Part shown: positions 16,700 through 51,146 of the stretch, one piece after another | Layout of the letters: the number at the start of each line of letters is the position of its first letter | Numbering within the stretch: position 1 is the first letter of the stretch | NCBI RefSeq assembly: GCF_018446385.1 | Contig: NC_055987.1 | Location: 6,595,705 to 6,659,704 of the forward strand | Reading direction: 5' to 3' | DNA length: 64,000 nucleotides | Source: Zingiber officinale | Taxonomy: Eukaryota; Streptophyta; Magnoliopsida; Zingiberales; Zingiberaceae | Made by a program: the position numbers and the translations under genes | The notes under the pieces: generated by a model | Seen by the model: only the letters and a program-made list of their open reading frames with translations | What the model was told of the DNA's origin: nothing | Database searches by the model: none

Positions 16700-16804
16700 T
16701 CAACAAAAAAAATAAAATAATAATATATATATAGATGATATGCTAGGCGCTTACTGCACGACCATAGGGACGCTATGGTCATGCAGATATGGGATTACCA
16801 GTTT
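16700..16804. other. NPF copy 1 3' flank with a short hairpin
   Basis: Downstream flank of the NPF stop codon. It holds a perfect 8-bp stem (GACCATAG 16760-16767, CTATGGTC 16773-16780) with a 5-base loop, extended imperfectly by TGCA on both sides. It may belong to the edge of the fold-back element. No function is assigned. Confidence 0.3.
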
Positions 16805-17360: not shown

Positions 17361-17400
17361 CAACCACTTCCTACATATGTTCTCTTTATTGGATGTATAG

Positions 17401-19176: not shown

Positions 19177-20160
19177 TCTACGGCCCAAATAAATGAGCTT
19201 CCATTTATCAACTCCATATGTCGGTCGTTTATATGTAGTGATGATAAAAATGCCTTGAAGTGAGGGTAATTACTTTTCCAATGCACTTTCTTACGATATG
19301 CACGGAAAGCAGAGGTTCTCTGGCTTGCCATTTAATTTTGTCAAATAAATACATCATATCTTAGTGATACTCATTTGGCTTCATTATAATGTTGTTAGTT
19401 TTCAACCATAATATGATACATTACACTGTTATTTTTTAACCATAATATGATACATTATAATGTCTATAATTTTTCCTAGCTATTATAATATGATTAGTAG
19501 CTGCTACAACATGACTACTTATCACGTTGTAATAGTTAGGGTCAAGTATTTGCTATAATAATGAGAAAACCAATATGGGCTATAGGGTTTAACCACATTG
19601 TATCAATCATTAGGGTTTAACTATATTGTAGCACCTGCTGTTGCGTAGCTGCTACAACAAAGATAATTTTTTTTAAACCCTCTATTCCCTGAAAGTAAAT
19701 CTTTAATCCAAAGACCTATAATCATTAAATACCATTGTCGCAACTAGGAGATGAATCAAAATCCTAAAAATTCAAACCCCTAAATAAAACGAGAAGAATC
19801 AAAACTTTAAAACCTAACACAATACTTATGATGGAGGCGAAGGTTTAGATGAGAAACAAGTCGTCGTGGTGAGATTGATTGACGAAGACACCGTGGAGTA
19901 CCAATCTACTATCAATGAAATTCTTTCGGAATATTTGTCACACGACTAGTTTAGGGGTTAAAACTTTGGCCGATGAGGGCAAAAATTAATTGCACAATAT
20001 ATTTTCACTTTCTCCGCCCGTGCATGATAATAGATATTAAGATTAGAGGTATTTACAACTTATATTGAAAAAACTTACCATTGAAAGGTTTGTGGGAAAT
20101 AATGTTTGCCAAGTTTCCTGCAACCTATATAACAAAAAATAGGTAAGAAATATTTGTTTG
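19177..20160. other. central spacer of the fold-back element
   Basis: About 1 kb without repeats of the 36-bp family except scattered half-units (about 19500 and 19625-19660). It holds a short direct repeat of CCATAATATGATACATTA (about 19405-19455). I see no gene and no transposase motif. Confidence 0.5.
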
Positions 20161-22395
20161 GAGTGTCAAAGTAGTTGCTATAACATGTAGCAACTATTGT
20201 AGGGTAGCTGCTATAACGTGGAGCAGCTATTGAAGAGTAGCTGCTACATTGTGTAACAGCTACTGTCAGATAGCTGGTACAAGGTGTTACAGTTACCCGA
20301 TTGAAAGCTGATATATGTTGTAGCTGTTACAACTTAAATCATAAAAAATTAAAACCCTAAACCCTAAATATAAATGTCTACTACCTACTTAGTATAGTAT
20401 CATCTAAGTAGCTACTTTGAAACTACCATCAAATGGTTTGTGGAAAATGATGTTTGGCAAGTTTTCTGCAAATTTTATAACAAAAAAATTGTAAGAAAAG
20501 GTTGTTTGGAGTGTAGAGATAGTTGATACAATGTTGTGGCACCCACACTGTGGAGGTTGTTGCTACAACGTTGTAGCAGCTAACCGTTGAATTAACTACT
20601 ACAATGTTGTAGTAGCTATTATTCCAAGTAGCTGCTATAATATTGTAGCAGCTAACCGTCGAATTAGCTACTACAATGTTGTAGCAGCTAATATTCCAAG
20701 TAACTGCTACAACATTGTAGCAACTACAACATTGTAGCAGCTAGTTATGGAATTAATTAACAATTTAACACCTGAGACTTCCAATAAAGATAATCACATA
20801 TAAATGGTATATAATAGGAATAGAGGAGAGGAATTACAATTTAAAATGAAATAACTTACCAAGTAGCTACTACACATTGTAATACCTACTTGGACAATTA
20901 GTTGCTACAAGGTCTAACAACTACTTGGACAGTTAACTGCTACACCTTGTAGCAGTTAACTGTCCAAGTAGCAGCTACAGCGTTGTAGCAGTTAACATTC
21001 CAAGTAACTGCTACAACGTTGTAGCAGCTAGTTATGGAATTAATTAACAATTTAACACTAGAGACGTCCAATAAAGATAATTACGTATAAATGGTATATA
21101 ATAGGAATAGAGGATAGGGAATTACAACTTAAAATAAAACGACTTACCAAGTAGCAGCTAGCTATAGACAGCTAACTGCTACAACACTATAGTAGCTAGC
21201 ATTCCAAGTAACTGCTACAATGTTGTAGCAGCTAGCTGTGGAATTAATTAACTGTAACGACCCAGCCCTTTGGCCTCTTCGGCGGCCCTTGTGGCGGCCC
21301 AACTGGCGGCCCTTATGTCGTCGGCCCATTTGGCGACCTCTCATGTCGTCGACCGACGACCTTTGGCCGTGTCGTTACTCACTAGGACTTTCCACCCCTG
21401 GCAGTAGATTTTTGCCTCCCGAGTTGAACCGAAGCAAGTGTTTATTCAAGGCAAAGAGTGGACGATTTCTCGGGTACATCGTGACTGAGGGGTGAATAGA
21501 GGGAAATCTGAGTAAAGTGAAGGCGCTGCGGGATATGCCCCCGCCCCACAACTTAAAGGAGGCCCAACAGCTGACCGGACGGATCACTGCATAGTCAAGG
21601 TTCATCTCCAAATCGTCCAATCGGAGTCACCCATTCTTCAAGATACTCCGCCATGTGATAAAATTCTAATGGGACGCGAAATGTGACAAGGCGCTGAAGG
21701 AACTTAAGAAATACTTTACCTCCCTACCTGTACTGCAAAGCCCATTGTCGGCGAGCCACTCTGACTCGTTTGTCGACCCTCTCATGTCATCGGCCCATTT
21801 GGCGACCTCGTCGGCGACGTCGTTACTTTTCACTGGCGATGGATTTTGCCTTTCAGTTCGAACTCAATAGTGAGATCATCTCAGGTTGGGATTCGTAAAC
21901 TCTACTACTTAGCCTGGAGGTCTAGAGTTCGAATCCTGGGGAAGGCAAAAATCCACTGCCAGGGGTGGAAAGTCCTAGTGAGTAACGACACGACCAAAGG
22001 GTCGTCGGTCGACGACATAAGAGGTCGCCAAATGGGCCGATGACATAAGGGCCGACGGTCGACGACTTGAGAGGTCGCCAAATGGGCCGCCAAATGGGCC
22101 AAGAGGGTCGGGTCGTTACATTAACAGTTTAACACCTGAGACGTCTAATAAAGATAATCACGTATAAATGGTATAGAATAGGAATAGAGAAGAGGGAATT
22201 ACAGCTTAAAATGAAACGACTTACCAAATAGTTGTTATACATTGTAACAACTACTTGGATAGTTAGCTTCTATAAGGTGTAGCAACTATTTGGACAATTG
22301 ACTGCTACAAAGTGTAGCAGTTAATTGTCGAAGTAGCTGCTACAACGTGTAACAGCTAACTGTCCAAGTGGCTGCACCGTGTGTAGCAGGCGTCG
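20161..22395 (-). repeat. 36-bp palindromic minisatellite, right array, with ~290-bp duplications
   Basis: Same 20-bp palindromic core, but the spacers are the reverse complements of those on the left (CTAACCGTCGAATTAG and CTAATATTCCAAGTAA types), proving inverted orientation. A ~130-bp AT-rich block (GAATTAATTAACAATTTAAC...GGTATATAATAGGAATAGAG) recurs at about 20750, 21030 and, split by an insert, 21241/22121. The right arm therefore grew by direct duplication. Confidence 0.85.
21248..22125. mobile_element. 868-bp inverted-repeat insert carrying a Gypsy pol piece
   Basis: Element 21253-22120 has ends TGTAACGACC / GGTCGTTACA and a 5-bp target duplication TTAAC (21248-21252, 22121-22125). Sister copies of the host repeat at 20755 and 21035 show the empty site. 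Arms of ~170-190 bp are inverted (21253-21419 against about 21935-22120), and a further partial left-arm copy lies near 21775-21870. The middle (about 21420-21775) resembles the RT/RNase H region of a Tat-like Gypsy element (GRFLGYIVTEG, PPPHNLKEAQQLTGRITA); it is a broken fossil. TG/CA ends with a 5-bp duplication point to integrase-type insertion, although the arms are inverted and not direct. Confidence 0.75.
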
Positions 22396-22950
22396 GCTTT
22401 GCACGTTGTAGCATAAATCCTTCATTCCTTCTAATATATATTAGGAACATGGTCAGGAATTACAACTTAAAATTAAATGAATTACCAATGGTTATGAAAT
22501 ATAGGAATTGATATTTGGCAAATTCTCTGCAAATTATATAAGCAAAAACTAGTAAGAAAACAGATAGGGCTTATGCATTATAGGATCTATCAGGGCTAAA
22601 AATTATTGTATAGAGCTGAACAACAGACACTGGAGTGGAAATGCTTACGATAGAGAATGGAGAGGGGTGTTAAGCAAACCGACATCGACTATGTATTCGG
22701 CGGCAGTTTGGGGAGCTGCCAGCCAACTAATGAACAAGCAAGTGACTATAACATGGGTTTAGCTTGTAGCGCCTTTCTTTGCTTTCTCGACAGGAGCGCG
22801 AGGTCCAACGGACGAAGGCTGAAAAGGAAGGAGCGAGAGTGAGAGAGAGAGAGAGAGCGAGGGAAATTTAGATTTAGCCAAATTCCTTCGCCGTTGTTTT
22901 GAATAGAAGGTGGAAAGGGTGAGAGAATAAAAAAAATATTTGATCTTGTC
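22396..22950 (-). repeat. right terminal inverted repeat of fold-back element
   Basis: Reverse-complement partner of 16805-17360. Relative to the left copy it has an 8-bp extra segment (ATGAAGGA type, near 22425-22432). Confidence 0.75.
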
Positions 22951-22989
22951 AGAGATTTGAGGCAATGGATGATGGGGGATGTGTCACTC

Positions 22990-23820
22990 CTGTTGATCGT
23001 TGGTGGACTCCGAGCTAGAGGATATTGCAATCACAGCAGTGTCAGTGCCGAGCTATGGAGGGGTTCCCAGGCGATGACCCTCCTACGCTCAAGTCAGTCT
23101 CCGGCGATGTGTAAGTAAGGAAGCAGAGAAACAGAGTAATAGTGTAGGTACAGTAGAAATTATGCATACTGCCGTTGAAGCTTGGGGCCCTTTATATAGA
23201 GCTCTAGGGCGTGTGTGCATACTTCTCGAGGTGTGCATGTTTCTCAAAGCTTTTCTTGAAAAGACATGTCAGGAAAGCGTCTCTAACATTATATCTTAAT
23301 GACCCGAGCATATCTCTGATATGACAGTGGAAACTTCCGTCGTACGATCCTCTGCCTGACCATGCCGCCAACTATGTCGTTTGTCAGTGGCACGAGTTCC
23401 CACAAGGATATCGGTTGATCCTCCTTTTGTCTGTTAGTGGGCCGAGCGGGATGGCCGCTCGGCCAGACCTCAGCCGTCCGGATGGTTTGGACCTTGAGCC
23501 GAGTGAAGTGGTCGCTCGACCAACATTCCATCATCCGAGCTCCGTTGTTGTGTCGAGCTATATCTGAGTGATTGCTCGGCTGCACTCCCGTTTCGCCAGT
23601 TCTGAGGTTCAATGTAAATCCGAGCGGGGCTGGTTGCTCGGCGTGTGCTTCTCTGGTACTCCTATGAGCATCAGAAGTTCGGTATGTGGTCGAGCTGTGA
23701 TGATGTTGGGTCGGACCTTCTCTATCCTGGTCGGGCGAGTGAGCCACCCGATCGACCGATGATACCGAGACGTTGACCGCCCTAACTTTGACCTCTGATC
23801 TCCACCGTAGCAATGACCCT
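22990..23820 (-). repeat. Gypsy LTR, probably solo
   Basis: Begins near TGTTGATCG/TGATCG, like the Tat-type LTRs at 6802 and 9620, and carries GCCGAGCGGGATGGCCGCTC and related CGCTCGGC motifs typical of plant Gypsy LTRs. The right edge lies just before the TCX5 upstream sequence (about 23826). No internal region is attached. I could not match a target duplication, so the edges are ±15 bp. Confidence 0.6.
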
Positions 23821-23825
23821 CTCAC

Positions 23826-26545
23826 GGTGTGAATTTAGATTTAGACCGCTCGATCTCTACGGCTATATGTGCCCGTACGATCCGTCCTTACTTCGAGATC
23901 GGACCGTCCGTTATTGGAATCTGATTTCAGAAGTAGAGAGAGAGAGGCATTCGCGTCTTCATCGTCTCTCGTGCTCCAAAGATTTCCAGCATCCGAACAA
24001 TAAAAAACCCATCTTTATCTCCATGCGATTTAGCCTCCCCGGCCCGCCGTCTCTTCTTGCGGCGGATCTCCTCCTCTTGACTGTCTCTCAGACTCTGGAG
24101 ATCCCCGGAGACTAACTCCCCTCGTTGCCCCCTTTCCAGATTTGGCTTCTTGGTCTAAGATGTGTTTGCTCGTCCCGACTTGGGGAGGGTTTTAGATACT
24201 TCACTAAGGAGTACAATTGGGAAGGAATTATTCGGAGGGCTTGACGAATAGATCCTCAGATCGGCGTTGCGAACGCCAATGGAGCAAATTTCTCAACCTA
24301 AGTCAACGTCGCCCGATGTCCCTCCTAGAAAACTCGTTCGCCAGCTGGATTTCACGGCCTCGGTCTATGGTGGAGGTTCCACTACGGCGACACTACCTGT
24401 GGCCCTTGATCCGTCGCAGTCACAGTGGCTACCTCTGCACCCGCCGGCTTCTCTGCCCATGTCGCTTTCGTCAATTTCTTCGATTTTTGTAGCCACGTGA
24501 GTTTTACTTTACTTAATTGTATTGATATTTGAATCATTTTCTGGATATGATAGCTTCTTCAAATTTTAGGCTATTTTCCATTGCGTTAACTTTTCAAGCG
24601 TTTCGTAGTTTCTAGGTTTTTTTTTCTAGTTTCATACTTCACAGGACAGAAGACTTATTCCTTTTGCTTTGAATTTTGCATCGTAATGAAAAATAAAATT
24701 TCTCAGGCTCCTTCTTTATTTTATTTTAAATTTTGGAGAAAGCAACTTTTGTTAATAGATGTTTAAAATGAATAGTTGCTTTATTTCAATTGGAAGTAAA
24801 GAAGTTCATGAAATATCACATCAAAAGGACGAATTTTATATAAAAGATATGGGAATCTTTTATAAGAAACTCTTCCTATAGTTATTGATTGAATTACCTA
24901 TAATAGACTATTTTTGAGTAATAGTGGACTGGGTTAATTTCTGTATGACAACCAAGATGGTTAGATCCATGAGCATTCTCTCACAGTGACCTTTGAAAGC
25001 TCAGTAGGATTCTAAATTCTAAAGCGCTTGATTAAAATGATTGTTTACTCTCACAATGACCTCTGAAAGCTCAATACTAGGGATCAAAACTAAAGTGGTT
25101 GATTGAAATAATTTTTTTTTAGTCTTTTTGTTTCAACATTTATGTTCTTGTGAAAGTCATAATTTCTGGCACTTATTTTGTGCAGTGATTTCTTCTCTAC
25201 CTATTTCTTCTCATTGACAAAGTTCTCTTAAGCGTCAGAATTTAGTTCTGAGAAATTCTGGTATCGTGGTTACGGTTAATTCGATCCTGCCTGTACAGGC
25301 ACTGTCCCAACCTCTCACATTGGGATGGTGGGACCCACACTTAAGTACTGAGTCCCACCATCTCATTGTGAGAGGTTAGGGCAGTGCCTGTACAGGCAGG
25401 GTGAAATTTACCCGTGGTTACATAGATATTTCTTATACTAGGGTTATGGATTGGTACTAAGAGTGAGTCTAGGCAAGCAGTTCTAATTTTAACAGCCTAT
25501 ACTGTATCATTGAAAAATGACTCATTTAGTAAGATTATAAGAGTAAATTCCTAAACCAATATATATCAATTGAACATCCAATGATCTGTTTGCTATGTAA
25601 TTTTAAAATTACATCAACTCTTGATACTTACCAATCACCATTCCCTTAAAGTTATCAGTGTTGAAGCTTTATCCATACATGATGTCTGCCTCTCTTATAT
25701 TTTTAAATTTTAAAGACCCTTCTTAATTATCATCTTATCACGGATCTCTGTAGAAAGCCACAATCACCCAAGTCAAGACAAGACACGCAACCAGTCTACA
25801 ATACTAAAGATGATACACCAACAAGAAAGAGGAATTGCAACTGCAAACATTCAAAATGCTTGAAGCTGTAAGTTGAATTCTCATTGATATGCAAGTCCTG
25901 TCAAAGCATTTCTTAGTAAATGTGTCTTAACTACTTGTGGTCGGTTACATGGATCTTATCATGCATTTGGCAATATGGAAGGTCACACCACTTGGTAATT
26001 TTATGGTTATACATGAAGCCAATGCCGTTAATATTACATGATTTTTTCACATTGAAAATCTGCTATTTGTTGTATGCTAATTCTTGGTTAGCATAATTAT
26101 AATTATTTCCTTCTAGTAGTCCATACTCCATATTGCTATGCATTTGTAGACAACAAATGTCAAATGCCATAAGATTGTGTTTTGGAAGGACAGCAAGGGG
26201 CTATGAATTTTTTGGATCAATTATAAGCATTAACTGGACCCAGTTTTTTTTTAACCTCGTGCCATCGTCCTCTCAAGGATTAGCTAAAGTAGTTAAAGCA
26301 TCATCTTAGCTGGAGTTCTCACTAGTCATATAGTCGTGCGAAGATTTTAAAGGTCATATGTATTTTATCTTTGTTGTTTTTCCCCACTTTTTTTTGACTT
26401 GTCTTCTGTGTTAAGAAGTCTTCTGGAACTTTTATAAGTCACTTAAACACTTGAAAGTGACAGTTACAGGAATATGCAAAAATTAGTAGTTACTTCGAAG
26501 AACCCAGGTTGTCTTTCTTAGAGTTCAACTTATTTTTGTAATTAA
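23826..26545 (+). pseudogene. truncated TCX5-like gene copy (exons 1-2 only)
   Basis: Duplicate of the 5' part of the TCX5-like gene at 52000. Exon 1 is 24279-24496 (ATG 24279) and exon 2 is 25754-25867; both keep open frames and consensus borders. The sequence is collinear with the complete gene until about 26545 and then stops, ~75 bp before the position of exon 3, replaced by a Copia LTR. The second half of CXC domain 1, all of CXC 2 and the C-terminal part are missing, so DNA binding is not expected. It could at most yield a ~110-residue N-terminal peptide. The upstream region (about 23826-24278) is retained, so transcription is possible. Confidence 0.88.
25265..25421. mobile_element. 139-bp fold-back MITE with 9-bp target duplication
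   Basis: Element 25274-25412 is flanked by CGTGGTTAC at 25265-25273 and 25413-25421. The two halves are almost perfect inverted copies: GATCCTGCCTGTACAGGCAC and CCAACCTCTCACA on the left pair with GTGCCTGTACAGGCAGGGTG and TGTGAGAGGTTAGG on the right. The duplicate intron near 52988-53000 has the site once and no insert. Nine-bp duplications fit Mutator-like MITEs. Confidence 0.92.
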
Positions 26546-27410
26546 TGTTTGAGCAATCGTTATATCCTAGATTTTGATGTTTAGACAAAAAGTTTAAATT
26601 AGGGTTTGTATTTGTATTTGATATGTGTTATTGAGTGTGTAGGTGACAGATGCAAAATAAAGTCCAAGTGTGACTTGGCAAAAGTGAAGTCCCGGAGGTG
26701 AGGAGGCTCTTGGCAAAGAAAGACCTGACAACAAGGACAAAGCCAAAGGAAGCTGTTGAAGGTAAGGCGTGAAGGATGGGAAAGCATCGAGGGACACAAG
26801 GCTGATGGAGGAAACTAGAAGGCAAGGTCAAAGTTGTAAAGGCAAGTTTGGGTTCTACTAGTTGACTGGTATATCAATCGATTGCCCAGTCGATTGGGGA
26901 GCGAATAGAAGGTTCTGTTCGCTCAGCCCATGAAGGCCAGTCGACTGATTGGGTTGATGACGTATAGAATCCACAAATCCTGAATACAGCAGTAACCATT
27001 ACCTACATGTTTATCAATTGATTGGTGATCGAGATTTAGTGTATCTCAATATAAAAGCTTTAGAACTTGGAGAAGAGCATACACTTTCATTTGATACATC
27101 TGATAAGCTCTCAAACTGATTCTAAAGCTCAAATTCTCATTCTCTTCTTCCTAAGCTAAAATTCCATCTTGTAAGAAGAAGAGGGAACTTCTTGTTGTGA
27201 AGGTTTCTCCACCAAAAAAGAGGTGATAATCGGAGTGCTAGAGATTGATCCATTGACAGATTGTGAGATCGTCCACCTCAAGGACACGTCATGGAGTAGG
27301 AGTTCTCATCTCCGAACGATGTTACATCCTCGAGTTAGAGTTTGTGTTGTATTTCATTCTAGCGTTCAATTTTGTTTTTGCTTTAGCTAACAAAGCCATG
27401 TTGGAAAAAA
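26546..27410 (+). repeat. Copia LTR fragment (SIRE-like)
   Basis: Begins where TCX5 similarity ends. Typical SIRE-like LTR content: TTTTGATGTTTAGACAAA near the start, GTCCAAGTGTGACTTGGC (a CCAAGT/ACTTGG hairpin), a cluster of AGTCGATTG/CAGTCGACTG motifs (26870-27030), TATAAAAG at 27050-27057, and GAAGGTTTCTCCACC further on. The 3' edge is unclear. No internal region is attached on either side. Confidence 0.65.
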
Positions 27411-27486: not shown

Positions 27487-28567
27487 ATGACCTGAGCGGA
27501 TAATCTCAGGCTGCCAGTAGAGGCTGGTTTCTGCTAAGTGTCAAAGAGTGGACTGAGTCGCCGAGTGGGCAGATCAGCCGAGAAGCAGGTCTGTGTTGTC
27601 GATTGGACAGACTGAGCAGTAGGTCTGTATTGCCGAGCGGGCAGATCGGTTGAACTGCAGGTCTGTATTGCCAAGTGGCAGATCAGCTAAGCTACAGGTC
27701 TGTGTGCAGAGAGATAGATTGGCTGAATAGTAGGTATGTGTTGCCGAGCAGACAGATCGACTGAGTTATAGGTTTGTGTTGCAAAGCGGCAGAGCAGCAG
27801 GTCTGTATTGCTGAAAGGGCAGACTGCCCGAGGCTTGCGAGAGTCGCAGTTTCCTTGAAACAGATTTGCCCCACCTTCGACTGTGCTTCGAGGCTTACTA
27901 GGGTCGTTTGTTTCTCAGGATACAACGGTTGTTCGTGATTCCCACCAAGCACTGATGGTCACGGCAAAATGAGTGGCACCTGATTACTATCACGGGCACT
28001 CTGCCAAGCAAGAGTTACACGACAGAGGAAGAGGGGAATGAAGGTGGAGAGTTTCTGCTTATTTTTTCAGTGTGTGTAAACCTATGATCGCAGCCTCCTT
28101 ATATAGGAGCTCAGATCAACGACAGCGTTAATGGTTAATTAATGACCATTACTCGCGCGAGCAGTGAAACGCCCACTGTTTCACTCGTTATCAATCGATC
28201 GTTTCGACTCTGCATTAATCTCAAATTTAATGCATCCGTTACACAGCAGCAAAAGGTTTACGTGGCAAAATGTTAGTTATTCCACTTGGGTAAATTTTGT
28301 CCCGACCGGTACGGCATTCGACGCGCACAGGTAGTACCTGCATACGAGTCAACATGTTTCAGTGCAATACGGGCCCTGAATTTGCACCCCCTGCGCACCC
28401 ATGCGTGAGAGAGAGCCTCTCCCCATGCATTTGTTCACATTCTCAATGCATGTGAATCAATATAAACCAACTAATATGCCAAGAAACTCCCAATGTGGGA
28501 CTAAAATCCCATTCACAATGGAGCTTCTATCCTCTTCCACCTCTTCTCTATTCACGAATATTCAACA
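27487..28567 (-). repeat. 3' LTR of the Tork-like Copia element
   Basis: Contains many repeats of CAGGTCTGTGTTGCCGAGC-type units (about 27550-27810). The segment at 28136-28371 is matched by the 5' LTR remnant at 32085-32245 (CAGCAGCAAAAGGTTTA, CCCGACCGGT, ACGAGTCAACATG). Confidence 0.7.
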
Positions 28568-32245: not shown

Positions 32246-33560
32246 ATCTAGTGATCAATCCAAATGCCCGAATCGATCCAGTGATCGATCCAGATGCCCT
32301 GGATTGATCCAGTGATCGATCCAGATGTCCTGGATCGATCCAGTGATCGATCTAGATCCTTTCTGTTCGAACAAAAAGGATCTCAATCGATCACTCAATC
32401 GATCCAGATGCCCGACTTCTGGAAATCGCGAAATCGCTTTTGCTCCTTCGAGAAACAACAAATGAAAAGGAAAAACTAAATGAAGAAAACGAAAGGAAGG
32501 AAAAAAGCTGACCTCCAATCGTTTTCCCTCGCCGCCGCTCACAGGTTATCGCTCACCGCTGACAAGTCGCCGATCGCCCGTCGCTAGTCGCCTCTGCTCT
32601 ACCTTCTCGACAGTCACAATTCCACTCGTCTTTGCCTCCTCGCCTTTGCCCTAGCTATTTTGTAAGCAATTATAGCGCCCGCTATGTGCCGCTAGGTCAC
32701 AATAGCACACGTTATGTGCGCTATCAACGCTTTTGTCCCGAATAGTGTGGGTTATTCGAGACAATTGCTAGAGTGTTCGCTGATCGTAGCACGCGATAAC
32801 ACGCTATATAGCACGCTATTCGCCGCTATTGAAACCCCTAAAAATTATAGAGCATCGCATATCTTCGCCTATAGATGGAGACCTCTTTTTATAATATCAT
32901 CGTTGTGTCTATGTACGCATGCTAAAGTACTCCTAAGAAAGGGCAAGTCATAAAGTGCCTCTGACACATTTCCAAAAATGAGCCCACAAATCTTTGTAAT
33001 TTGATAGGTTGGAAGTTTCGGACGTGCAATTTATCTGCAAGGTATTCTCTGTCCTTTATGTTACAAACTTCCAAAAAAGAGTACGAAGTCGCAGGTCCAT
33101 GGGTCCCACATTAGGCCGACCAGTCGTTATTCAGAGGGACAACTAGCTCGGCCTAACGGAATGTCGTCAACGACTCGGTCTTCACTCGATTTCTCCATTT
33201 ATCGTAAAGGAGTAGCATGTCTAATCAGCCCATAGTCGATCGTTGATCGACTGAAGCAGTCGATTGAGTTACTTAACACTTGGCAATGAGGTTTGACCGC
33301 TTGTCTCAGGTTGGGTCACGAAATCCAGCTGAGCGGGAAGCCCGATCGACCACTCGCGCACGATCGGCCATCCCAAGGCATGATCAACCATGTGGCCGGT
33401 CTAAGCATGCCCATGCTCTTGTTAGTGACTTTGATTGTTTCTTAACTTTGAATGTCATGCTAGTCGGTCTTCTTTACTTTAACCCGCTTTTGAGGGGTTC
33501 AATATCAAGAACCTTCATTCTATAAAGGTCAGTGCTACTTCTGCATCCTTAGTATCTCTC
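32246..33560. other. composite repeat-derived sequence
   Basis: About 2.7 tandem copies of a 31-bp unit built on GATCCAGTGATCGATCCAGA lie at 32275-32355, followed by related ATCGATCC motifs to 32410. The rest (to ~33560) looks LTR-like (TCGGCC/GACCGA motifs near 33110-33420), but I cannot define ends or a family. No gene is seen. Confidence 0.4.
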
Positions 33561-34263
33561 CTATACACCAGTAGCATGGATGAGTATTCTCTTTGTAGGG
33601 ATCTTATTGAATTACAATTTTCGTTGGTTTCTTAATTCTTTTGCGGTACCTTATTTCTTTAGTTTCTCTTCTTTAGAAAATGCAAGCTTGTTCTTTGATT
33701 TTTATGCATTTTGATGTTGGCATATAGTTTGTCTCCTTCCAACTAGCGTAACATATAAAGGTAACATATAAAGTGACAGTGACAAAAAAAAAATAAAAAT
33801 AAACCCTTTTGTTTTTTGTTGCAATTTAAATCAGAAGGATAAAATTTTTAGATGGTCAATTCTATTTTTACATGCAAAATAGCAATAACAAGTCTTATTT
33901 TATTAGATGGGTCAGTTATATGAATTCATTAAATTAGTCTTTCATAACAAAAATAAGAGGAGAGAGTTTAGTTGAATTGAATGAAGCGTTTAATTCAAAT
34001 AGATTCATTTTAATAATTATATTATATAATAATAATGACAATCAAATCTTAACCTACTAGGTGAGATTAGTTATATGGATCCTTTTATTATTGGGCATTA
34101 TCATCTATTATATTTATATTTAAATAAACATTATCTTATTTTATTATTGCTAACTAAGTTTTTTTTATCTTCCTCATTTAATGTGTACATTTATCATAAT
34201 TTTACAACCCCTAATTAGAGTATTTAGTGATCATCTAAATACATGTCTGTATTATCTTAAACA
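33561..34263. other. AT-rich intergenic stretch, nothing recognised
   Basis: AT-rich sequence with no convincing reading frame or terminal repeats. It ends at the AAACA target-site base run of the Copia element that follows. Confidence 0.5.
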
Positions 34264-35367
34264 TGTTGGATCGTGAAACGTCGATAGAGAGGGGGTGAAT
34301 ATCGATTCGAAACAATCGCGTTAATAAGAGTTAAGCGCAGCGGAATAACAAAAACTTAGGCCAACTGAACAAGGTGTTTTTTACTTCGTTCGGAGTCTGT
34401 GACGACTCCTACTCGAAGGCCCGTACTCCTTGAGTACTTTCGTTGGGCAATCACTATCAATTTGAATATTACAGAGTTAAGTACAAGAATTGACAGATAA
34501 AGAAAATACCGACAATAGAATTAAAACAAAACCAGCACTGAGTCGGAGAGCTTTTCGTGGCGTCGCAAGAGCACAGAGCAGCAGATCTTGGATTCTAAGT
34601 TCATATTGAAGCTCTACCCTTGCCCCTTCTTTTATATGAAGCTCAGGGCGCCCCGGATCCCTTCCAGGCGCCCTGGTGAGACGTGGCAGGTCCAACCAGT
34701 GAGCTCCACGTGGCGACGCGCAATCGGGATAAAACTTGCCTCCCGGGCGCCCGGACCTCCGGGAGCCCGGATCCCCTCCGGGCGCCCGGACCACCTTTCT
34801 CCAGAACAGGTCCTTCTCCTGCAAGACAAGGTTAGTCCGAGGCAAGTATAATAAATTTCCTGCAAAACAAAGTGTTAGCACAGTTCATGAGTTTGACATG
34901 AAAAAGTATGACTTAGATTCCGTCTTTCCGAGACCGAAATCTAGTCACGATCTCGACTTAGATATCCGAAATTGATCTAAACCGGATCGACGCCTAATGT
35001 TCCCTTCCCGGGAACGCGTCCTCACAGTCACTCCCTTCCAGTGACTTATCTTTACTCACCTGCCAGACGTCCGGTCAGCCCTTCGACCCGTCTGGACTTC
35101 TCGCCAGCTATCTGGTCAGCCCGTCGACCTAGCTGGACTTCTCGCCAAGCGTCCGGTCAGCCCGTCGACCCGCTTGGACTTCTCGCCAGCTATCCGGTCA
35201 GCCCGTCGACCTAGCTGGGCTTCGTGCCAGACATCCGGTCAGCCCGTCGACCTGTCTGGACTTCTCCTACACACTCGATCAGAGTGTTAGACAACAACAG
35301 ACTAACTTAACCTGATTTGTCATTCATCAAAACCCGGGTTAAATCATTAGTGCTAACCGCACCAACA
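34264..35367 (-). repeat. 3' LTR of young Copia element
   Basis: 1104 bp. Promoter-like TATAAAAG (minus strand; 34629-34636) with adjacent GGCGCC motifs (34647-34800). Five 41-bp hairpin units lie at 35063-35259. It has 43 bp (about 34745-34788) of GC-rich, partly self-complementary sequence absent from the other LTR. Confidence 0.9.
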
Positions 35368-37339
35368 ATCTCCCCCCTTTTGATGGAATGATAACCTGGT
35401 TAAGTTAGTGAAAACATATGCAAGAAAAAACAAGCATTTAAGTTAGTTTGTATTTTCAACTCTGGTTTAGCTAACTTAACCACCTAACCCTCCCCCTTTG
35501 ACATTCATCAAAAATAAGCATTGATTAAATAAGCATAGATTTTTTGAAATGTCAAGATAATCTGGGGGAGTTTAAACTTTTGAAAAACTTGTTTAAAGCA
35601 TTAGCTTTTAGTTTTTAGAAAAATAACTAAGTCTAAATAGACAAAATCTCAAACACAAGTGTATAAGTTCTAAATTTCAAGATCAAATTTTAAATTTTCA
35701 AAACTAGTTTCAATTTTGAAATGCTTTTCAAATAAGTTTTTGAAACTCAATTTTGAAACTTAATTTGAAATGCTAAGAAATTTATTTTTCAACACTAAGT
35801 TTGTAAAAGATTCAATTAAGAAAAATAATTTTGAGAAACTTAGGTTTTGAAAAACTCTAATTTCCACAATTTCAAAGAAATTTTGAAAACTAAAATTTAA
35901 CTTTCAAATTGTCAAAATTAAGTAAAGTCAAATTTTGAGAACTAGATTTTTGAATTTAATTTTCAAAACTAAGTTAAATCTAATATTCAAAATCAATTTT
36001 CAATAAAAAGTGAAGCCCAAAACAACTTGATTGTATAAGAGTTAGTTTGCAAACATAGTTTTAAAATATTCAAAGTAGACAAAGGAGTTTTCAAAATAAT
36101 TTTGTAAAATTCTTTTTCAGAATCAACTTTTCAAAAAAAAATTGCACATTTTTAATCAAGTTGAGTCAAAAATAATTTTAAAGTTTAATTTGAAAAACTG
36201 AAGTAGTTTTATTTCTCCCCCTGAACCTGACATTAAATGTTGAAAATATTTGCTAAAAATATTCAAACTAGAATTTTTTTATTTTTTTTTTAAATGAGGT
36301 AGAATTTTCTAGAGAGATTTTAAAGAGAAGATTAAACAATAACACTTAAGGAGATAATTAAAAAATAAACCTCCCCCTAAATTTGATACTCCTTTAATTT
36401 ATTAATCCTCCTTATTTATTACTCCCCCTTAATATAAAATTTTACAACCGTAACATATTTTCATACCTAAGTGTTTTAGGCGATTGTATAATTATCTTTA
36501 TAAAATTGTTCATTTAAATTTGACTAACCATAATTAATGTTAGATTAAGTTGAAATAAATTAACCTTTAGTGTAATGTTAAGTAAGATAAGTTGTTATTA
36601 ATTCAATAATTGAACAATATTAATAATTTATTGATTAAATTTTGCTATAATCTAAATTTTGTATTAATTGATGAAGGTGTTAATTATAATTTAACTTTTC
36701 ATTTACTTCCTTTTAAGTTGGATTAACTTAGTTTAAAGTTGGTGGTAATTTGAAGTTAAACTCGTTATTAAACAAGGTTAAGTAAGGTTGAAGTCTAAAT
36801 TTGAAGTTTAAAGTTAGTTCAATTTAAGTCAAACTTTAATTATGTTTTAATAAAAATGATTAATATTTTAAAGGTTGATTAAAAAAAATGACTTAGAGTA
36901 ATTTTAATATTTTTAATAAGGTTAAACTTAGGTTCTAATCAAATCAAGCTTAGTTTTCAAATAAGGTTAGATTTAAAGAATTAGTTATTTACTTATTAAT
37001 TACTTGATTAAGTTTAAAGTCAAAATTTTTTGTTTTAAGTTTTATCTTAGGTATGAATTTAAAGTTTTAATTCTAAGTTATATTAAGTCTTAAATTTAAG
37101 TTTTAAATTTAAGTTTTAAGTAATTTAAGTGCCTTAGTATTAAAATAATTTTTAACTAGATTTTTTTTTTAATAATTTAGAAATAATTTTTAAAAGAATT
37201 TTTAAAATAGTTTAAAACAAAATAGTTTTTAAAGGATTTTTTAAGATAGTTTTGAAAGAATTTTGAAAATAATTTTTAAGTTTAGAATAAAAATTTTTAA
37301 AGTTAAATTTTTAAGTTAAATATAAAATTTTTAAAATAT

Positions 37340-37755
37340 TTTTAAGTTTAAAATAATTTTTAAAGTTAATTTAATTTTAAAAGAATTTTTAAAGTTAATT
37401 TAATTTTAAAATAAAATTTTAAAGTTAATTTAATTTTAAAATAATTTTTAAAGTTAATTTAATTAAAATAATTTTTAAAATTAATTTAATTTTAAAATAA
37501 TTTTTAAAGTTAATTTAAAATTTAACATAAATTAATCGTAGTTCTGGTTAGTTATTTAATTCGAAGTTTAATTTAATTGATTTAATTCGAAATTTAATTT
37601 AATTAATTTAGTTCGAAATTTAATTTAATTAACTTAATTCGAAATTTATTTTAATTAACTTAATTCGAAATTTAATTTAATTAATTTAATTCAAAATTTA
37701 ATTCAATTAATTTAATTCGAAATTTAATTTAATTAATTTAATTCGAAATTTGGTT
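37340..37755. repeat. AT-only tandem repeats in the gag-only Copia element
   Basis: Two neighbouring arrays: ~28-bp units of the type TTTAAAGTTAATTTAATTTT (37340-37520), and ~26-bp units TTCGAAATTTAATTTAATTAA (37560-37755), about seven copies. They lie in the non-coding internal part of the element. Confidence 0.8.
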
Positions 37756-38919
37756 TTGATCGTTAGTCATCTCACCCGATCTAAGTTTTCAATCAGGGAA
37801 TCCTATAATTTTGTGAGATGAATTAGATTTAATTACAGAGTTTGGTTTAACTTGTGTTAGATTCAAGTTTAGCTTTGGTCTCAATAAATAGACATTCTTC
37901 GGATAAACTTCTAAGCTTGGTGAGTCACTTGGACGTCATTAGAAGTAACCAACCTTTCGAGGTTTTCCGAATAGTCCTATCCACGGAGCTTAGTACTAAA
38001 CCTTGGTCTAACTAGTTAGGATCCATTTAAAGGTAGCTTCGGTCGGTTCCACTTGGCCAAATGCACCAGATTGAATCCATATCTTTCTAGACATGCGATG
38101 CCCAAATTTCCCCAACGTACTATCATCAAAAAACTTCACCAGTACCATGATTCAAGTTAAACTTGAACCCTCTTTAACTAGTCATAATTACCCTGTCGGG
38201 TAGGTTGGTTGGGGTTACCCTTTTCGGGTAGATTAGTTTTAGATGTGCCAGCTATTCTGGAGCCTCCCCCTGAATTATTGGCCATTAATTTAAGATTTTT
38301 TTTATAATTAGAGTTGATTTTAGTTAAGTTTTAATGTTTAATTTGTAATTTAAATTTAAGTTTTTAATTTTGAATTAATTAAATTGGTCAAATTATCTTT
38401 CTTTAATAGTTTATTTTTAAAGTTTAAGTTTTTATTTATTTTTAAATTTGAATTAACTAAACTGTTTGAATTATATTTTCTTAACGGTTTATCTTTTAGC
38501 TTTTTATTAATTGTTAATTTTGAAATTTATAGATTATTTTTGTTTAATTTGTTATCTTTAACATTTAATTTTAAGTTTGTTAAATTCTGTTTTGATTTTA
38601 TCAAAGTGTATGATTTTATCCTTATATTTTCTTTGCCTTTTAAATTGATATGGTTAATTGAATTTATTAGATTAGTTTTATCTTTAAAGTTTAATTTTTT
38701 ATTAATTAAATTATCTTGGTTTTGGATAGCATTTTCTAGACTGATTTTATCTTGATTATTAAATATTTTATCAGGGTATTTATTGATTTTATCCATTTTC
38801 TCATTTTTAGCATTTAATTTCAAATTTATTTTAATGTTTGACTTATTTATGTCTAAATGCTCACCTAATTTTAAATTTTCTGAATTAATTAAATTATTTG
38901 AATTGATTTGGTCATTGTT

Positions 38920-39516
38920 CTATTTGACCAAGTCAAGGTTGATGCCAAATTGATCAGAGTCTTGATTAACTTGATCAGAGTTTAGATTATTTTGTGATTT
39001 TGAATTTAAATCATTTAAATCTAGATTATCATGCACCATACTTGGACTAATTTCATACTTATCATCATGTCGATTATTTAAACTACTATTAGCAGGGGTA
39101 TTTTGATAAATATTACTAACCTTGAGCGCAACCCCTAATTCAGTAGGCTTCTCCGTTGGATTTGACTCGAGTCCATATTTGACTTTAACTTGATCTTCTA
39201 GCTCCATCGGCGTCTCGTGAAGCTTGATCAACTGGGTCCACAGCTCATATGCATTCTTGTACTTTCCTAATCTGCATAAAATATTGTTAGGTAAAACATT
39301 ACAAATAATGTTACTTACCTTTTTGTTCAGTTCCGAGTTTTGAGAAGGTTTCCTCAAAATTAGCATATAATCGATGTTTACGCTTCCTAAGAAGCATTCC
39401 ATTAATCGCTTCCAGTAGTTGAAGTTTTCATGATCGTATGGTGGTGGTTCGCAGGGGTTCCTTCCTTCTTGAAGAGTCATTATTCTTGCACACAGAGAAA
39501 CAGAAAAAAATCCCAA
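38920..39516 (-). CDS. Copia gag N-terminal region
   Basis: A 198-residue frame with the Copia gag start pattern (PPYDHENFNYWKRLMECFL), an Asn/Asp-rich tail, and position just 3' of the 5' LTR and primer-binding site. It belongs to the young Copia element and is not a host gene. A further Asn/Lys-rich frame continues downstream (to about 38500). Confidence 0.8.
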   Translation of the reverse strand: MGFFSVSLCARIMTLQEGRNPCEPPPYDHENFNYWKRLMECFLGSVNIDYMLILRKPSQNSELNKKVSNIICNVLPNNILCRLGKYKNAYELWTQLIKLHETPMELEDQVKVKYGLESNPTEKPTELGVALKVSNIYQNTPANSSLNNRHDDKYEISPSMVHDNLDLNDLNSKSQNNLNSDQVNQDSDQFGINLDLVK

Positions 39517-39833
39517 GACTTGGTCTTGGATTAGCAGTGCTGAAAAAAATAATATTTCACTATTTTCGGAAAAAAATAATAAAATAAAATATTAATAAAA
39601 TATTTGAAAAAAATATTATTTCAAAATTTTGAAAATGTAATATTTTTTAAATACTAAATAATGGTGAAAAGATGGTGATGTATTTTTCAAAAATCGTTTT
39701 GGAGGGAAAAAACGTAAGGCGTAAGGTTTTATTTAAAAGACAAACAATATCTAATTTTTTTAAAAAAAAACGACCCCCCTTTGCTCGATTGGTGGTTGCA
39801 CCAAATCAGAGCGGTACCTGCTCTGATACCACT

Positions 39834-40894
39834 TGTTGGATCGTGAAACGTCGATAGAGGGGGGGTGAATATCAATTCGAAACAATCGCGTTAATAAGAG
39901 TTAAGCGCAGCGGAATAAAAAAAACTTAGGCCAACTGAACAAGGTGTTTTTTACTTCGTTCGGAGCCTGTGACGACTCCTACTCGAAGGCCCGTACTCCT
40001 TGAGTACTTTCGTTGGGCAATCACTATCAATTTGAATATTACAGAGTTAAGTACAAGAATTGACAGATAAAGAAAATACCGACAATAGAATTAAAACAAA
40101 ACCAGCACTGAGTCGGAGAGCTTTTCGTGACGTCGCAAGAGCACAGAGCAGTAGATCTTGGATTCTAAATTCATATTGAAGCTCTACCCTTGCCCCTTCT
40201 TTTATATGAAGCTCAGGGCGCCCCGGATCCCTTCCAGGCGCCCTGGTGAGACGTGGCAGGTCCAGCCAGTGAGCTCCACGTGGCGACGCGCAATCGGGAT
40301 AAAACTTGCCTCCCGGACCACCTTTCTCCAGAACAGGTCCTTCTCCTGCAAGACAAGGTTAGTCCGAGGCAAGTATAATAAATTTCCTGCAAAACAAAGT
40401 GTTAGCACAGTTCATGAGTTTGACATGAAAAAGTATGACTTAGATTTCGTCTTTCCGAGACCGGAATCTAGTCACGATCTCGACTTAGATATCCGAAATG
40501 GATCTAAGCAGGATCGACGCCTAATGTTCCCTTCTCGGGAACGCGTCCTCACAGTCACTCCCTTCCAGTGACTTAACCTTACTCACCTGCCAGACGTCCG
40601 GTCAGCCCTTCGACCCGTCTGGACTTCTCGCCAGCTATCCGGTCAGCCCGTCGACCTAGCTGGACTTCTCGCCAAGCGTCCGGTCAGCCCGTCGACCCGC
40701 TTGGACTTCTCGCCAGCTATCCGGTCAGCCCGTCGACCTAGCTGGGCTTCGTGCCAGACATCCGGTCAGCCCGTCGACCTGTCTGGACTTCTCCTGCACA
40801 CTCGATCAGAGTGTTAGACAACAACAAACTAACTTAACTTGATTTGTCATTCATCAAAACCTGGGTTAAATCATTAGTGCTAACCGCACCAACA
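39834..40894 (-). repeat. 5' LTR of young Copia element
   Basis: 1061 bp, near-identical to the LTR at 34264. TATAAAAG (minus) at 40199-40206; five hairpin units at 40590-40786. Confidence 0.9.
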
Positions 40895-41363
40895 AAACGT
40901 ACCTTCTAGAATTTTCCCTCAAAAAGGGTAAGCTCGACTTTCTCTCTAATATTAATATCTCCATCTATGTAACTCACATCTTTTATATTTTTATCTATAG
41001 AAGGATAATGAAAATGAGAATGGAATTAGTTAATTTAAGTTGCTTGTTTATGCTTGATGCTAATGACAAATCTACATCCTAAAACTAATGTCGGATCTTG
41101 CTTGAATTGCATATGCTATCAATTTTATTGTCTTTAGTGGGAGTTTGATGCAATCTAATAGTTCATTGTGAATATACTACGACTCTTATGGCACTGTCAT
41201 ATATGATGGTATATTAAAAGTCAATATGAGCATGGCGCTGCACTTTGTTTATTTGCATCAAATTTTGAATAAATTGATATCTATTCTTCATTGATTGCCT
41301 TGATGTTGAACTAGTATAGCTTCGAGAGTCTTGACCCTTGTTGACAATCCACTTTGTTTAATG
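40895..41363. other. intergenic, nothing recognised
   Basis: Unique-looking AT-rich sequence between the young Copia element and an exon-like segment. No repeat or gene is recognised. A CTTTGTTTAATGTAG 3' splice-site-like stretch lies at its end. Confidence 0.4.
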
Positions 41364-46987: not shown

Positions 46988-48207
46988 ATAAGACAGAGTA
47001 ATTGGTCCAAAATGAAACTGACCGAATCTAGTTTAATTGAAATTAGAAAAATATTTTTTTTCTAAAATAACTGAATCGATTAAATTTTTTTAAAAGTTAA
47101 ATAAATTGAATCAATAAAATATCAATTAGTTTAATTTTTACCGAATTAATTTAATTTTTTAACAATAATTTCTATCTGATTTTAACTCATGAGTTGACAA
47201 ATTTGAGAATTTGTGCTTGTTTATTATTGCTAACGACAATTTTAAAAATAATGTATCATTAGAGATCATGCAAAATCACAGGTTGTATATTATCTCTCAT
47301 TCAAATATCTAATAATTGTGATAGTTGTAAGGGGAATAAAATAAATAAGTTTATTCGATTTAGCTAAATTATTAGTACAATAAATACATTTTTAAAATAA
47401 CTGAACGGAAGTTTTAAATTCAATTTGTTTAATTATTTAACTTGATTTAATCAAATTTTATTTATCCCTACTTATAAATAAGTCAAGGATGGTAATTAAA
47501 TTGATCATTTTAACCCAATGAGCACCGTCTAATCTCTTTTATTTGTTCATAATATATAAAGGCTAAAATAAAATAATAATAACATATATGCACATAACAA
47601 CATATGTACATATTTAACATATAGTCATTTTTAAAATTCAATAAAAATAAACATTTCAGAATTATAATTATTTATTAATTAATTAGCTAAGATTAAATAG
47701 TTAGTCATCCTAAAACACTCACTATTTTAGTGTTTTATTATGAATATGACCTTTAATAATTAATTTTAGTGTAGTCTAAAATTAAATTATATTAATATTT
47801 TTTCCTTTTTATATTAAAAATTATTTTAAAATTTATTAATAATTTTCTCTAGCTATTTTATATAAAAAATATGTAATGTTATGATTTTCTTTATCCTATA
47901 TTTTAAAATTGATAATATCCTAATGGAGAAATTTATATAAATATCTTTACTCGGTATATATATATTGGCTATGATATATTAAATTTGTTCTACTGCATGT
48001 GCCTTACCCAATCCAAGTAAATAATAAGATAACAAATTTAAAAAGATATAATACAATTTTAATAATAAAATAACAAAGTTAGGAGATATAATACAATTAA
48101 ATATTGGAGGCGATTTAATAATAAAATAACAAAGTTAGGGGATATAATACAATTTAATCCCCCCTTCTCCCTATAAAACACCGTCGGCGCTCACTATTTT
48201 GTATCAT
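46988..48207 (+). promoter_or_regulatory. NPF copy 2 upstream region with duplicated block and TATA box
   Basis: AT-rich. Similarity to the NPF copy 1 promoter starts near 47682 (TTAGCTAAGATTAAA). A ~47-bp block (TTAATAATAAAATAACAAAG...GATATAATACAATT) occurs twice in tandem (about 48058-48107 and 48113-48160) but once in copy 1 (near 8497). The TATA box CTATAAAAC is at 48171-48179, ~35 bp before the first ATG. Confidence 0.6.
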
Positions 48208-51146
48208 ATGGGCATGGAAGCTCCGGTGGCAGCGCTGCATCAGGAGATGGTCGGCGGGCGGCCGCAGCGGAAGAAGGGCGGCCTCAAGACCATCCCCTGC
48301 ATCATCGGTAACTCGTCGTCGGCGAACTCTTAATTAATTATTTCCACTTGTATATTTATGGGATCATGAGCAGTTGAAGTGGGTGGACGGTGCATGCAGC
48401 GAATGAAGTCCTGGAGAAGGTGGCGAGCTTTGGACTGCTTGCAAATATGATCATCTACCTGACGGCGACGTACCACATGAAGCCTGCGGCGGCGGCGGCG
48501 GTGCTGCTCCTTTGGGGAGCCACCTCCAATTTTCTCCCCATTTTCGGAGCCTTCCTGGCCGATTCCTGGCTCGGCAAGTTCCGAGTCATCGCAGCCGGCT
48601 CCTTCTTTAGCCTGACTGTGAGTAGACTTCAATCACTCTCTGCATATACCCTCAATTTCTGCAGAATACTAATTAGTCTTTCAGTGTGGAAAAGAAATCA
48701 TTACGGGAAATTAATGATCATTTATAACCAACATTAATTCTCAACAAATTCTAGTAATTAAATCTGTTTCTTTAATTTCTCTGGCTCTCTCTCTCTCCAC
48801 TGTATCAAATCAGCTTTATCACATATTTTAAGTGTGGTTCTTAATTTTTCATGGATTTTGAAATTGATTTTGAAATGTTTTTTTTTATTTTTTTGGGTGC
48901 CTATTAAAAATATACCATTCACATATCAGATATACTCATTATATTAACATTTCTTTTTTCTATAATACACAACATTCATTTTGACATTAATTTTCATTAT
49001 TTATGGGTTCTACTAAATTATTTTTTTAATAAAAACTATTCATTAACACGATGTTAATTAATGTGTCATTGTCATAACAATATGCATTGATATTGATTGT
49101 AACACCATTTGAACACCCACCTATTAATATATATCAACGCGGATTCTTTTAATTGTCCAATCAGTCTACCAGAAAAAAAAAAACTAAACAACAAAATTTA
49201 TAAAAAAAAAATCAATGAAAATGCTTATTCGGTTTTCTTTGAGAATTTGAAGTTTTTTTCCCTGAAAAAAAAAATTGAAAAACAAGTCATGAACCGAATA
49301 AGGGCTCGTTTTTGTTGCGTTAAAAGTTTGAGTTATTATGAAGACTCGTTCAAAGTGAAGAAAAGCAATAATTAGTTGGCATGTCGGCCTTGACTAGATG
49401 TTTAGTGAGCACAATTAGGAAGCATGCCCACTTTTGTCGTTGGGTCCTTTAAGATAGATGGTGAAGCTTTGATCGGTCAACTTAGTGTCATGTATATCAC
49501 ATCATTTGGTAAGACCACAAATGAGTGAGAGCAATTTTAATAAGTGATGGCAAATGTTTTCATCCAAGATTTATTTACTTTTTTATTATTGTTTTCGATC
49601 TCCTTTCGATCGTCATGCAAAATCATTTGTAATTATGAATTTGATCGTGATTAAATTTGCGTTTGTGTTCTCGATCAAGGGGATGGTGCTACTTTGGCTA
49701 ACCGCCATGATTCCCGGAGCTCAGCCACCCGCCTGCAGCGCCGGCAGCCATTGCCTCGGCGCCACCTCCTCGCAGCTCGCCCTCCTCCTCGGCGCGTTCG
49801 CATTCATGGCCATAGGCACCGGCGGCGTCCGTCCCTGTTCCCTCGCCTTCGGCGCCGACCAGTTCGACCGCCGCAAATCCCAACCCGACGCCGACGACGT
49901 CCGCGTCCTCCAGACTTTCTTCAACTGGTACTACGTCTCCGTCGGTGTCTCCCTCGTCCTCGCGCTCACCGTCATCATCTACATCCAAGACCATGCGGGC
50001 TGGCGCATCGGCTTAGGCGTCCCCGTCACGCTCATGGCCGTCTCCACCCTTTTCTTCCTCCTCGGCTCCGACATGTACATCAAGGTGAAGCCCAACAAGA
50101 GCGGCCTCTCCGGCCTCGCTCAGGTCGCCGTGGTAGCGATCAAGAACCGCAACATCATCCTCCCCCCCAACTCCTCCGACTCGTGGTACCACAAGAAGAA
50201 GGGCTCCAAGCTCACGGTGCCTTCCAAGAGCTTGAGATTCCTGAACAAAGCTTGCGTCATCCGAAATCCCGAGAAGGACCTCAACCCCGACGGCACTGCG
50301 GCCGACCCGTGGCGGCTGTGCACGGTGGAGCAGGTGGAGGTGCTAAAGGCTGTGGTCCGGGTGCTTCCCATCTGCTCCACCGGCATCATGGCGGCTATCA
50401 CCATCAGCCAGAGCTTCCCGGTGCTGCAGGCATCGTCCATGGACCGCCACCTAGGCCCCCACTTCCAGATCCCAGCCGCCTCCGTGGTCGTCTGCTCCAT
50501 CGTCGCCCTCTCGCTCTGGGTCGCCGTTTACGACCGCCTCCTCGTGGCTCCTCTCGCGCGGCTCACCGGGCGCCCGCGCGGCCTGGGGCTGAAACAGAGG
50601 ATGGGCTTCGGGCTGGTGCTCTCGAGCATCGCCACCGTCGTCATGGCCATCACAGAGCACATCCGTCGGCGAAGGGCGATCGATCAGGGACTGATGGACA
50701 AAGGAATAGTGCACATGTCGGCCATGTGGCTGATACCGCAGTACTGCCTGACGGGATTGGCGGAGGCGTTCAACATCATCGGACAGATCGAGTTCTACTA
50801 CTCTGAGTTCCCTCGCAGCATGACCAGCGTGGGGTTGTCGCTTCTGTCGCTGACGTTTGGGACGGGGAGCTTGGTCGGGGCGGTGATCGTGGCGGTGGTG
50901 GACAGAGTGACGGAGGCGAATGGGGGCGTGAGTTGGCTGGACAGGAACTTGAACAAGGGGCGATACGATTACTACTACTGGATGCTGGCAGCGATGTCGG
51001 TGGCCAATGTGTTCTACTTCGTGCTCTGTAGTCAGATCTATGGGGAGGAAGGGAAGAGTAAGATTTGGGAGGAGGAGGAAGAGGAGGAGAAGGAGGAGAT
51101 GGAAGAAGATCAGCAAGCGAGCAAAGAGTTGTCGATGATGCCTTAA
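48208..51146 (+). CDS. NRT1/PTR family (NPF1-type) transporter, intact copy
   Basis: Three exons: 48208-48307, 48400-48617 and 49680-51146, GT-AG borders, 594 residues, normal for the family. It is a proton-coupled plasma- or tonoplast-membrane transporter with 12 predicted helices and a hydrophilic central loop (about residues 230-320). Visible family marks: the ExxEK proton-coupling motif in helix 1 (residues 36-40, in ANEVLEKVASFGLL), GGVRPCSLAFGADQFD in the fifth-helix region, the IPQYCLTGLAEAF segment and FYYSEFPRSM near the C-terminal bundle. By memory it is closest to NPF1 (Arabidopsis NPF1.1/1.2, nitrate transport); the substrate cannot be read from sequence. Two in-frame ATGs (48208, 48214) are conserved in both copies; the second has the better context (GGCATGG). 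The C-terminus is a Glu-rich tail. Exon 3 is GC-rich, as in many monocot genes. Confidence 0.93.

Follow-up and report, generated by a model that had tools for sequence, protein, structure and literature searches.

A probable regulatory palindrome array with a constant centre and several compensated stem versions in the LTRs of a Sirevirus-type retrotransposon of Zingiber officinale

Sirevirus LTRs contain palindromic repeated motifs (RM), which sit before the TATA box in the upper LTR half, according to the sections of Bousios et al. 2010 (PMC2829016) that deal with them. A promoter action has been suggested in print for these palindromes, and in maize the palindrome region of Sireviruses is a hotspot of small RNAs (Bousios et al. 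2016, in the passages of PMC5311732 and PMC10760457 that cite it). The question that we addressed is whether the pairing itself is selected. Among the titles and abstract openings listed in a literature search, none dealt with compensated stem versions in LTR palindromes. The array described here is of this known kind, with an unusual twist: a constant centre is combined with several compensated versions of the stem. With more than 40,000 copies of the unit, several stem versions and many decayed copies, the family constitutes a natural experiment, in which retention in the lineage can be compared with later decay in the chromosome.

We examined a window of 64,000 nucleotides of the Z. officinale genome, to which all coordinates refer. 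An earlier note on this DNA had reported five 41-bp units with perfect 7-bp stems in each of the two LTRs of a Copia element, and the same array, mostly intact, in a solo LTR. Both claims were confirmed, positions and stems included (10 out of 10 units in the two LTRs), the first unit of the solo LTR being decayed, and the pattern stands well above chance. The arrays comprised the following features:

35063–35095, minus strand: unit of class G, CCAGACG/CGTCTGG, the last unit in element sense
35104–35136, minus strand: unit of class T, CCAGCTA/TAGCTGG, with one centre base changed
35145–35177, minus strand: unit of class C, CCAAGCG/CGCTTGG
35186–35218, minus strand: unit of class T
35227–35259, minus strand: unit of class A, CCAGACA/TGTCTGG, the first unit in element sense
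40590–40786, minus strand: partner array in the 5' LTR, in the window order G-T-C-T-A
18482–18675, minus strand: solo-LTR array, one decayed unit followed by C-T-C-T

Tandem periods of 41 bp and 82 bp were detected with TRF. In window orientation, each 41-bp unit consists of an outer arm of 7 bases, the centre TCCGGTCAGCCCGTCGACC with its GGTC/GACC inner arms, a second outer arm of 7 bases and a linker of 8. The outer three stem pairs, CCA/TGG, were invariant in the main classes and the inner four were variable, with the versions GCTA (class T), AGCG (class C), GACA (class A) and GACG (class G), and with GATA in older copies. The two tiers of the unit are asymmetric: on the sense strand, the 3' side is three bases longer than the 5' side.

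The carrier element lies on the minus strand, which is a correction to the earlier note. Its LTRs were delimited by their similarity to each other and their ends were counted by hand:

34264–35367, minus strand: 3' LTR (TG...CA)
39834–40894, minus strand: 5' LTR (TG...CA)
39820–39833, minus strand: AGTGG spacer and PBS TATCAGAGC, directly 3' of the 5' LTR
35368–35378, minus strand: terminal PPT AGGGGGGAG and AT before the TG, the octamer plus one G
35490–35497, minus strand: upstream PPT octamer AGGGGGAG
40201–40206, minus strand: candidate TATA box CTTCATATAAAAG; in element sense it follows the array at a distance of about 380 bp

The two LTRs were 98.1% identical over 486 bp and 97.8% over 584 bp, and the flanking CGTTT and TGTTT resemble a target duplication of 5 bp in which one base has changed. 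At the rice substitution rate of 1.3e-8 per site and year, the insertion would be about 0.8 million years old. Based on its non-coding hallmarks, the element is probably of the Sirevirus type (Ty1/Copia). The junction CA/AGTGG/TATCAGAGC at 39835–39820 (minus strand) agrees with the Sirevirus junction given in the relevant section of PMC2829016, namely CA / A(T or G)TGG / TATCAGAGC. The PPT-AT/TG arrangement was also present, as AGGGGGGAG-AT-TG in the focal copy and as the exact AGGGGGAG-AT-TG at 2058 in a second LTR family of the window. Multiple PPTs were found as well: five exact AGGGGGAG octamers upstream of the 3' LTR (35490, 36215, 36371, 36422 and 38264). In addition, the C-rich TTCACCCCCCCTCTATCG stands about 18 bp before the LTR end, as in the description of the integrase signal, with which it was compared by description and not by alignment. 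Another TATCAGAGC, at 1466, was discarded as a PBS, given that no LTR end precedes it.

In a longer copy, a piece of 2.8 kb, read without the RT, contained the domains Pol_BBD, gag_pre-integrs, rve and SH3_retrovirus in this order. Two frames of the short internal region of the focal copy matched 0 Pfam families, and the longer of them may be a gag remnant. Among 40 places in the genome, the same-strand array pairs were about 8.1 kb apart in three cases and 6.9 kb apart in one, compared with 5.5 kb in the window; the copy in the window has thus probably been shortened by deletion.

The array occupies positions 109–305 of the 1061-bp LTR and the TATA box lies near position 690, so the array is in the upper half of the LTR and before the TATA box, as in Sireviruses. 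According to the description of the repeated motifs in PMC2829016, several of them have CGGTC..GACCG as a common core, which resembles the inner arms GGTC/GACC found here. Differences were also observed. The CGG-CCG core of the RM is present in part: CGGTC stands on one side, and on the other GACC continues into CG or T, which gives a CCG, displaced by one base, in classes C and G alone. The same description comprises 13 motifs with one consensus each (66–100% identity), whereas here a constant centre is combined with several outer stems; it places the motifs 200–400 bp from the LTR start, whereas the array starts at about 110 bp; and it gives at least eight copies per element, whereas we counted five per LTR. 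The distance of about 380 bp to the TATA box is likewise larger than that described there. As for the small-RNA hotspot of maize Sireviruses, it is characterized in the pertinent passages of PMC5311732 and PMC10760457 as a palindrome-rich part of the LTR with predicted structure and high sequence variability, like the array studied here. A single palindrome, AGGGCGCC...GGCGCCCT, lies just before the TATA box of the 5' LTR (40206–40300), and the 3' LTR exceeds the 5' LTR by about 43 bp and has additional GC-rich sequence in this region.

The exact unit centre occurred 41,825 times in the 3.09-Gb genome, and 0 times when it was searched backward as a control. About five stem classes dominated, all of them Watson-Crick paired. 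In a sample of 187 units chosen by the centre only, with no filter for similarity to a class, 131 were fully paired: 128 had one of four exact paired stems and three had further perfect stems, seen once each. The earlier note had named the duplication of whole stems from a few ancestors as the explanation that would undo its own reading of the stems, and these 128 units are of precisely that kind. A second, local sample (first 10 Mb of one contig, exact centre, not chosen for class) yielded 162 units in 36 arrays, 94 of them of the exact classes; the remaining 68 comprised 38 with one broken pair, 6 fully paired and 24 in worse condition, all within six mismatches of a known class, a range which wholly new stems would escape. 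Our guess is that 6 fully paired off-class units out of 68 is somewhat above chance, and at least one of them belongs to the inherited GATA class.

The usual order of the units was G, then alternating T and C, and finally A. We tallied 75 arrays, of which 66 had 4–8 units, in most cases below the eight or more of the described Sirevirus motifs; GTCTA was found in 18, CTCT in 10, CTCTA in 7 and GCTCTA in 6, tallies that are biased by the make-up of the set (36 near relatives of two window arrays, the 3 window arrays and 36 others).

We then compared the inherited classes with each other. Along the shortest path that joins the five classes there are about seven differing pairs, all of them compensated. 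Classes A and G differ at the innermost pair (A-T and G-C, respectively), and crossed combinations were found in 1 out of 49 and 1 out of 51 of the matches listed, hybrids aside. For the left arm CCAGATA, the partner A was present in 34 out of 73 matches listed (5 hybrids are included in the denominator), compared with 1 out of 49 for CCAGACA (p 9e-9). The paired CCAGATA units had other changes in the arm in 14 out of 34 cases, compared with 4 out of 34 for the units retaining G; since they carry more changes elsewhere in the arm, we read GATA/TATC as an older inherited class.

The second LTR family of the window showed a comparable pattern. Its copy near 2068 contains the following feature:

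2295–2960, plus strand: LTR of the second family with three hairpin arrays (CCTGG/CCAGG; CCAAG[C/T]/[G/A]CTTGG; [A/G]GTC.[G/A]GAGA/TCTC[C/T].GAC[T/C])

The earlier note had presented this LTR as an unrelated one that follows the same principle. The principle holds, with the stems CCTGG/CCAGG, CCAAGC/GCTTGG and CCAAGT/ACTTGG, but to call the two LTRs unrelated is too simple: the sense frame AAGTCC...GGCA is common to both. In 21 copies of the family, CCAAGC/GCTTGG was found in 32 units, CCAAGT/ACTTGG in 56 and crossed combinations in 5, so that 88 out of the 93 units were matched at the variable pair. The third array (2602–2959), which the note had not mentioned, alternates between AGTC.GGAGA/TCTCCGGACT and GGTC.AGAGA/TCTCTGGACC, represented by 47 and 42 units, respectively (together 89 out of the 112 units matching the search expression). 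A further unit, CCAGAT-A-GGTC-AAG[A/G]TT-GACC-AGAC-ATCTGG, has a two-tier plan like that of the 41-bp unit, including the surplus of three bases on the 3' side of the sense strand; it was intact in 12 out of the 21 copies and had one outer-arm base changed in the window copy. We read the two-tier module of both LTR families as a sign of common descent. One unit pattern of this family occurred 24,401 times in the genome.

The reading of the earlier note is supported in so far as the stems differ and stay complementary between classes, in two LTR families; the support does not extend to covariation among many independent copies. Most of the apparent covariation is whole-unit inheritance, historical and bound to the lineage. 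The few classes, the inheritance of whole units and the free decay of the copies would all fit a neutral relic, that is, a few palindromic units of single origin that spread by duplication with their pairing unmaintained. So would some recurrent uncompensated states, namely GAC[A/G] with AGTC in old copies, CCATCTA with TAGCTGG in 2 out of 43 units that have an older centre and, in the second LTR family, TCAGG in place of CCAGG. Such a relic, however, would predict uncompensated classes to be as common as compensated ones, and the frequent classes are compensated at every differing pair in two LTR families, for which reason we hold it very unlikely.

Resident, decayed copies behaved differently from the classes. 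We searched the genome with the exact centre and one arm fixed, left the other arm free and tallied the complementary partner; 100 matches were listed per pattern, taken from the first contigs and not drawn at random, and the right arms were counted by hand. For CCAACTA (594 places), the complementary T was present in 5 out of the 100 matches listed (95% interval 2–11%), and for the control CCAGCTA (13,758 places) the same T was present in 4 out of the 100 listed, including one arm with a second change. Similarly, CCAGATG had the partner A in 1 out of 27 matches listed, compared with 2 out of 51 for CCAGACG. Compensation was therefore not found in decayed copies, among the matches listed, for two of the three stem changes tested. 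Hybrids of CCAGCTA with CGCTTGG amounted to 4 out of the 100 matches listed; such hybrid arms are to be expected from exchange inside the constant centre. The older-centre units, which were listed completely (n=43), comprised 19 of a known class and 24 incompletely paired ones, with no new compensated stem among them. Based on the matches listed in the conditional searches and on these 43 units, we rejected covariation at the level of the copies. In the cases tested, the near equality of mutants and controls (5 and 4 out of 100) points to pairing that is maintained while the lineage replicates and goes unrepaired once a copy sits in the chromosome.

These counts also bear on the main rival explanation, template switching between the arms during reverse transcription or replication, in which one arm rewrites the other and no functional selection is needed; the stems would stay perfect and would change several bases at a time. 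The mechanism has been proposed for RNA hairpins (PMC8794818) and for inverted repeats (PMC8604942), in the portions of these papers that deal with it. The stems treated in the former show two-sided changes with few intermediates, as here, where the classes differ by one to three pairs on the shortest path, also with few intermediates. However, the former infers it, in that portion, for rRNA and microRNA genes, whereas the resident copies studied here showed no correction at the two positions tested. We also found 0 inverted spacers beside 356 units in 75 arrays, allowing up to 5 mismatches, though an intrastrand switch need not invert the spacer. Finally, the 36-bp palindromic arrays of another element of the window (17392–17711 and 18788–19171; 20 units) had paired changes that were not above shuffles (fractions 0.15 and 0.13). 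This control array indicates that covariation is not a default property of palindromic arrays in this genome, which speaks against correction as a default process. A copying mechanism that preserves the pairs, which the earlier note had offered beside selection, may act during element replication and left no sign in resident copies; as the explanation of the array we regard template switching as unlikely.

Another explanation is that the units work as RNA hairpins in the part of the transcript that comes from the 3' LTR, with a role in RNA packaging, in reverse transcription or in making small RNAs. Folded one at a time, all five 3' LTR units did well (z -2.0 to -3.2, most of 200 dinucleotide shuffles beaten; n=5), small RNAs map to the palindrome region of maize Sireviruses in the passages of PMC5311732 and PMC10760457 on that region, and one variant of the second LTR family leans toward RNA: the right arm TCAGG, found in 5 out of 57 units of the CCTGG/CCAGG array, keeps a G-U pair in the sense RNA. 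On the other hand, the five-unit array as sense RNA had an ordinary fold (z -1.55, with 15 out of 200 shuffles as good). Of the 75 arrays, 39 contained three or more exact units near each other; in these, a unit formed its own stem with a mean probability of 0.38 in sense and 0.50 in antisense, because of pairing between like units. G-U pairs were absent from all five 41-bp classes, on either strand, and Rfam gave no match in 34200–41000. Moreover, with the array on the upstream side of the TATA box, the transcript is expected to lack it at the 5' end and to carry it solely within U3 of the 3' LTR. This makes RNA packaging, one of the roles suggested before, less likely. RNA hairpins as a whole seem to us quite unlikely. 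The position upstream of the TATA box and the ordinary RNA fold appear to favour DNA dyads in the promoter over RNA hairpins.

We consider it moderately probable that the array is a U3 cluster of palindromic repeated motifs of a high-copy Sirevirus-type Copia family, in which the palindromes serve as dyad sites of the promoter and the symmetry of the arms is under selection in the source elements. The unit would be a DNA dyad with a constant centre, GGTC/GACC inner arms and outer arms of 7 bp, of which about five versions are inherited, and the cluster of dyads upstream of the TATA box would provide putative cis-regulatory binding sites, presumably for a protein. Selection would keep the arms symmetric in a small number of transposing source elements, further versions of the stem would arise as compensated pairs in this lineage, and the length of the array would change, often in two-unit (82-bp) steps. 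Each insertion would afterwards decay freely and uncompensated. Several findings stand against this reading. The two-tier asymmetry, with three extra bases on one side, would not be needed by a plain dimer site. Compensated events of independent origin are few in number (about seven in the 41-bp family and three in the 2068 family), uncompensated states recur as well, and 6 out of 68 off-class units of the local sample were fully paired. The array also departs from the described Sirevirus motifs in its position and number of units.

Like neighbours were rare within the arrays: in the 36 arrays of the local sample, 9 out of 117 adjacent pairs were alike, compared with 24.4 expected and with a minimum of 14 in 5,000 shuffles. 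Neighbouring stems might be deliberately kept unlike, as a set of words that do not pair with each other. Each palindrome would then close on itself, or the array would nest with G and A outermost, T paired with T and C innermost, and unequal exchange from one unit to the next would be damped. We rate this idea lowest of all, as a long shot; growth of the array by two units could equally yield rare like neighbours, and the own stem was not favoured in the RNA folds.

Other repeats were observed in the window. The region 17032–22722 has inverted-repeat flanks (17032–17369 against 22722–22366 inverted, 76%) and carries the palindromic 36-bp arrays near both ends; it is possibly a DNA transposon with subterminal repeats. 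We had considered the 36-bp arrays as a further LTR case and ruled this out, the flanks being inverted and not direct repeats. The solo LTR (about 17730–18780) is inserted within a 36-bp array of this element. Two copies of a large repeat were found at 8814–26552 and 48161–55333, in the same order and with pieces 82–95% identical, and the inverted-repeat element looks nested in the first copy, since it is present only there. Finally, we found a tandem array of 37–38 bp at 27620–27782, the units of which may hold a short inverted repeat (TCTGT/ACAGA), and a 31-bp tandem array at 32246–32357 with many GATCGATC-like palindromes.
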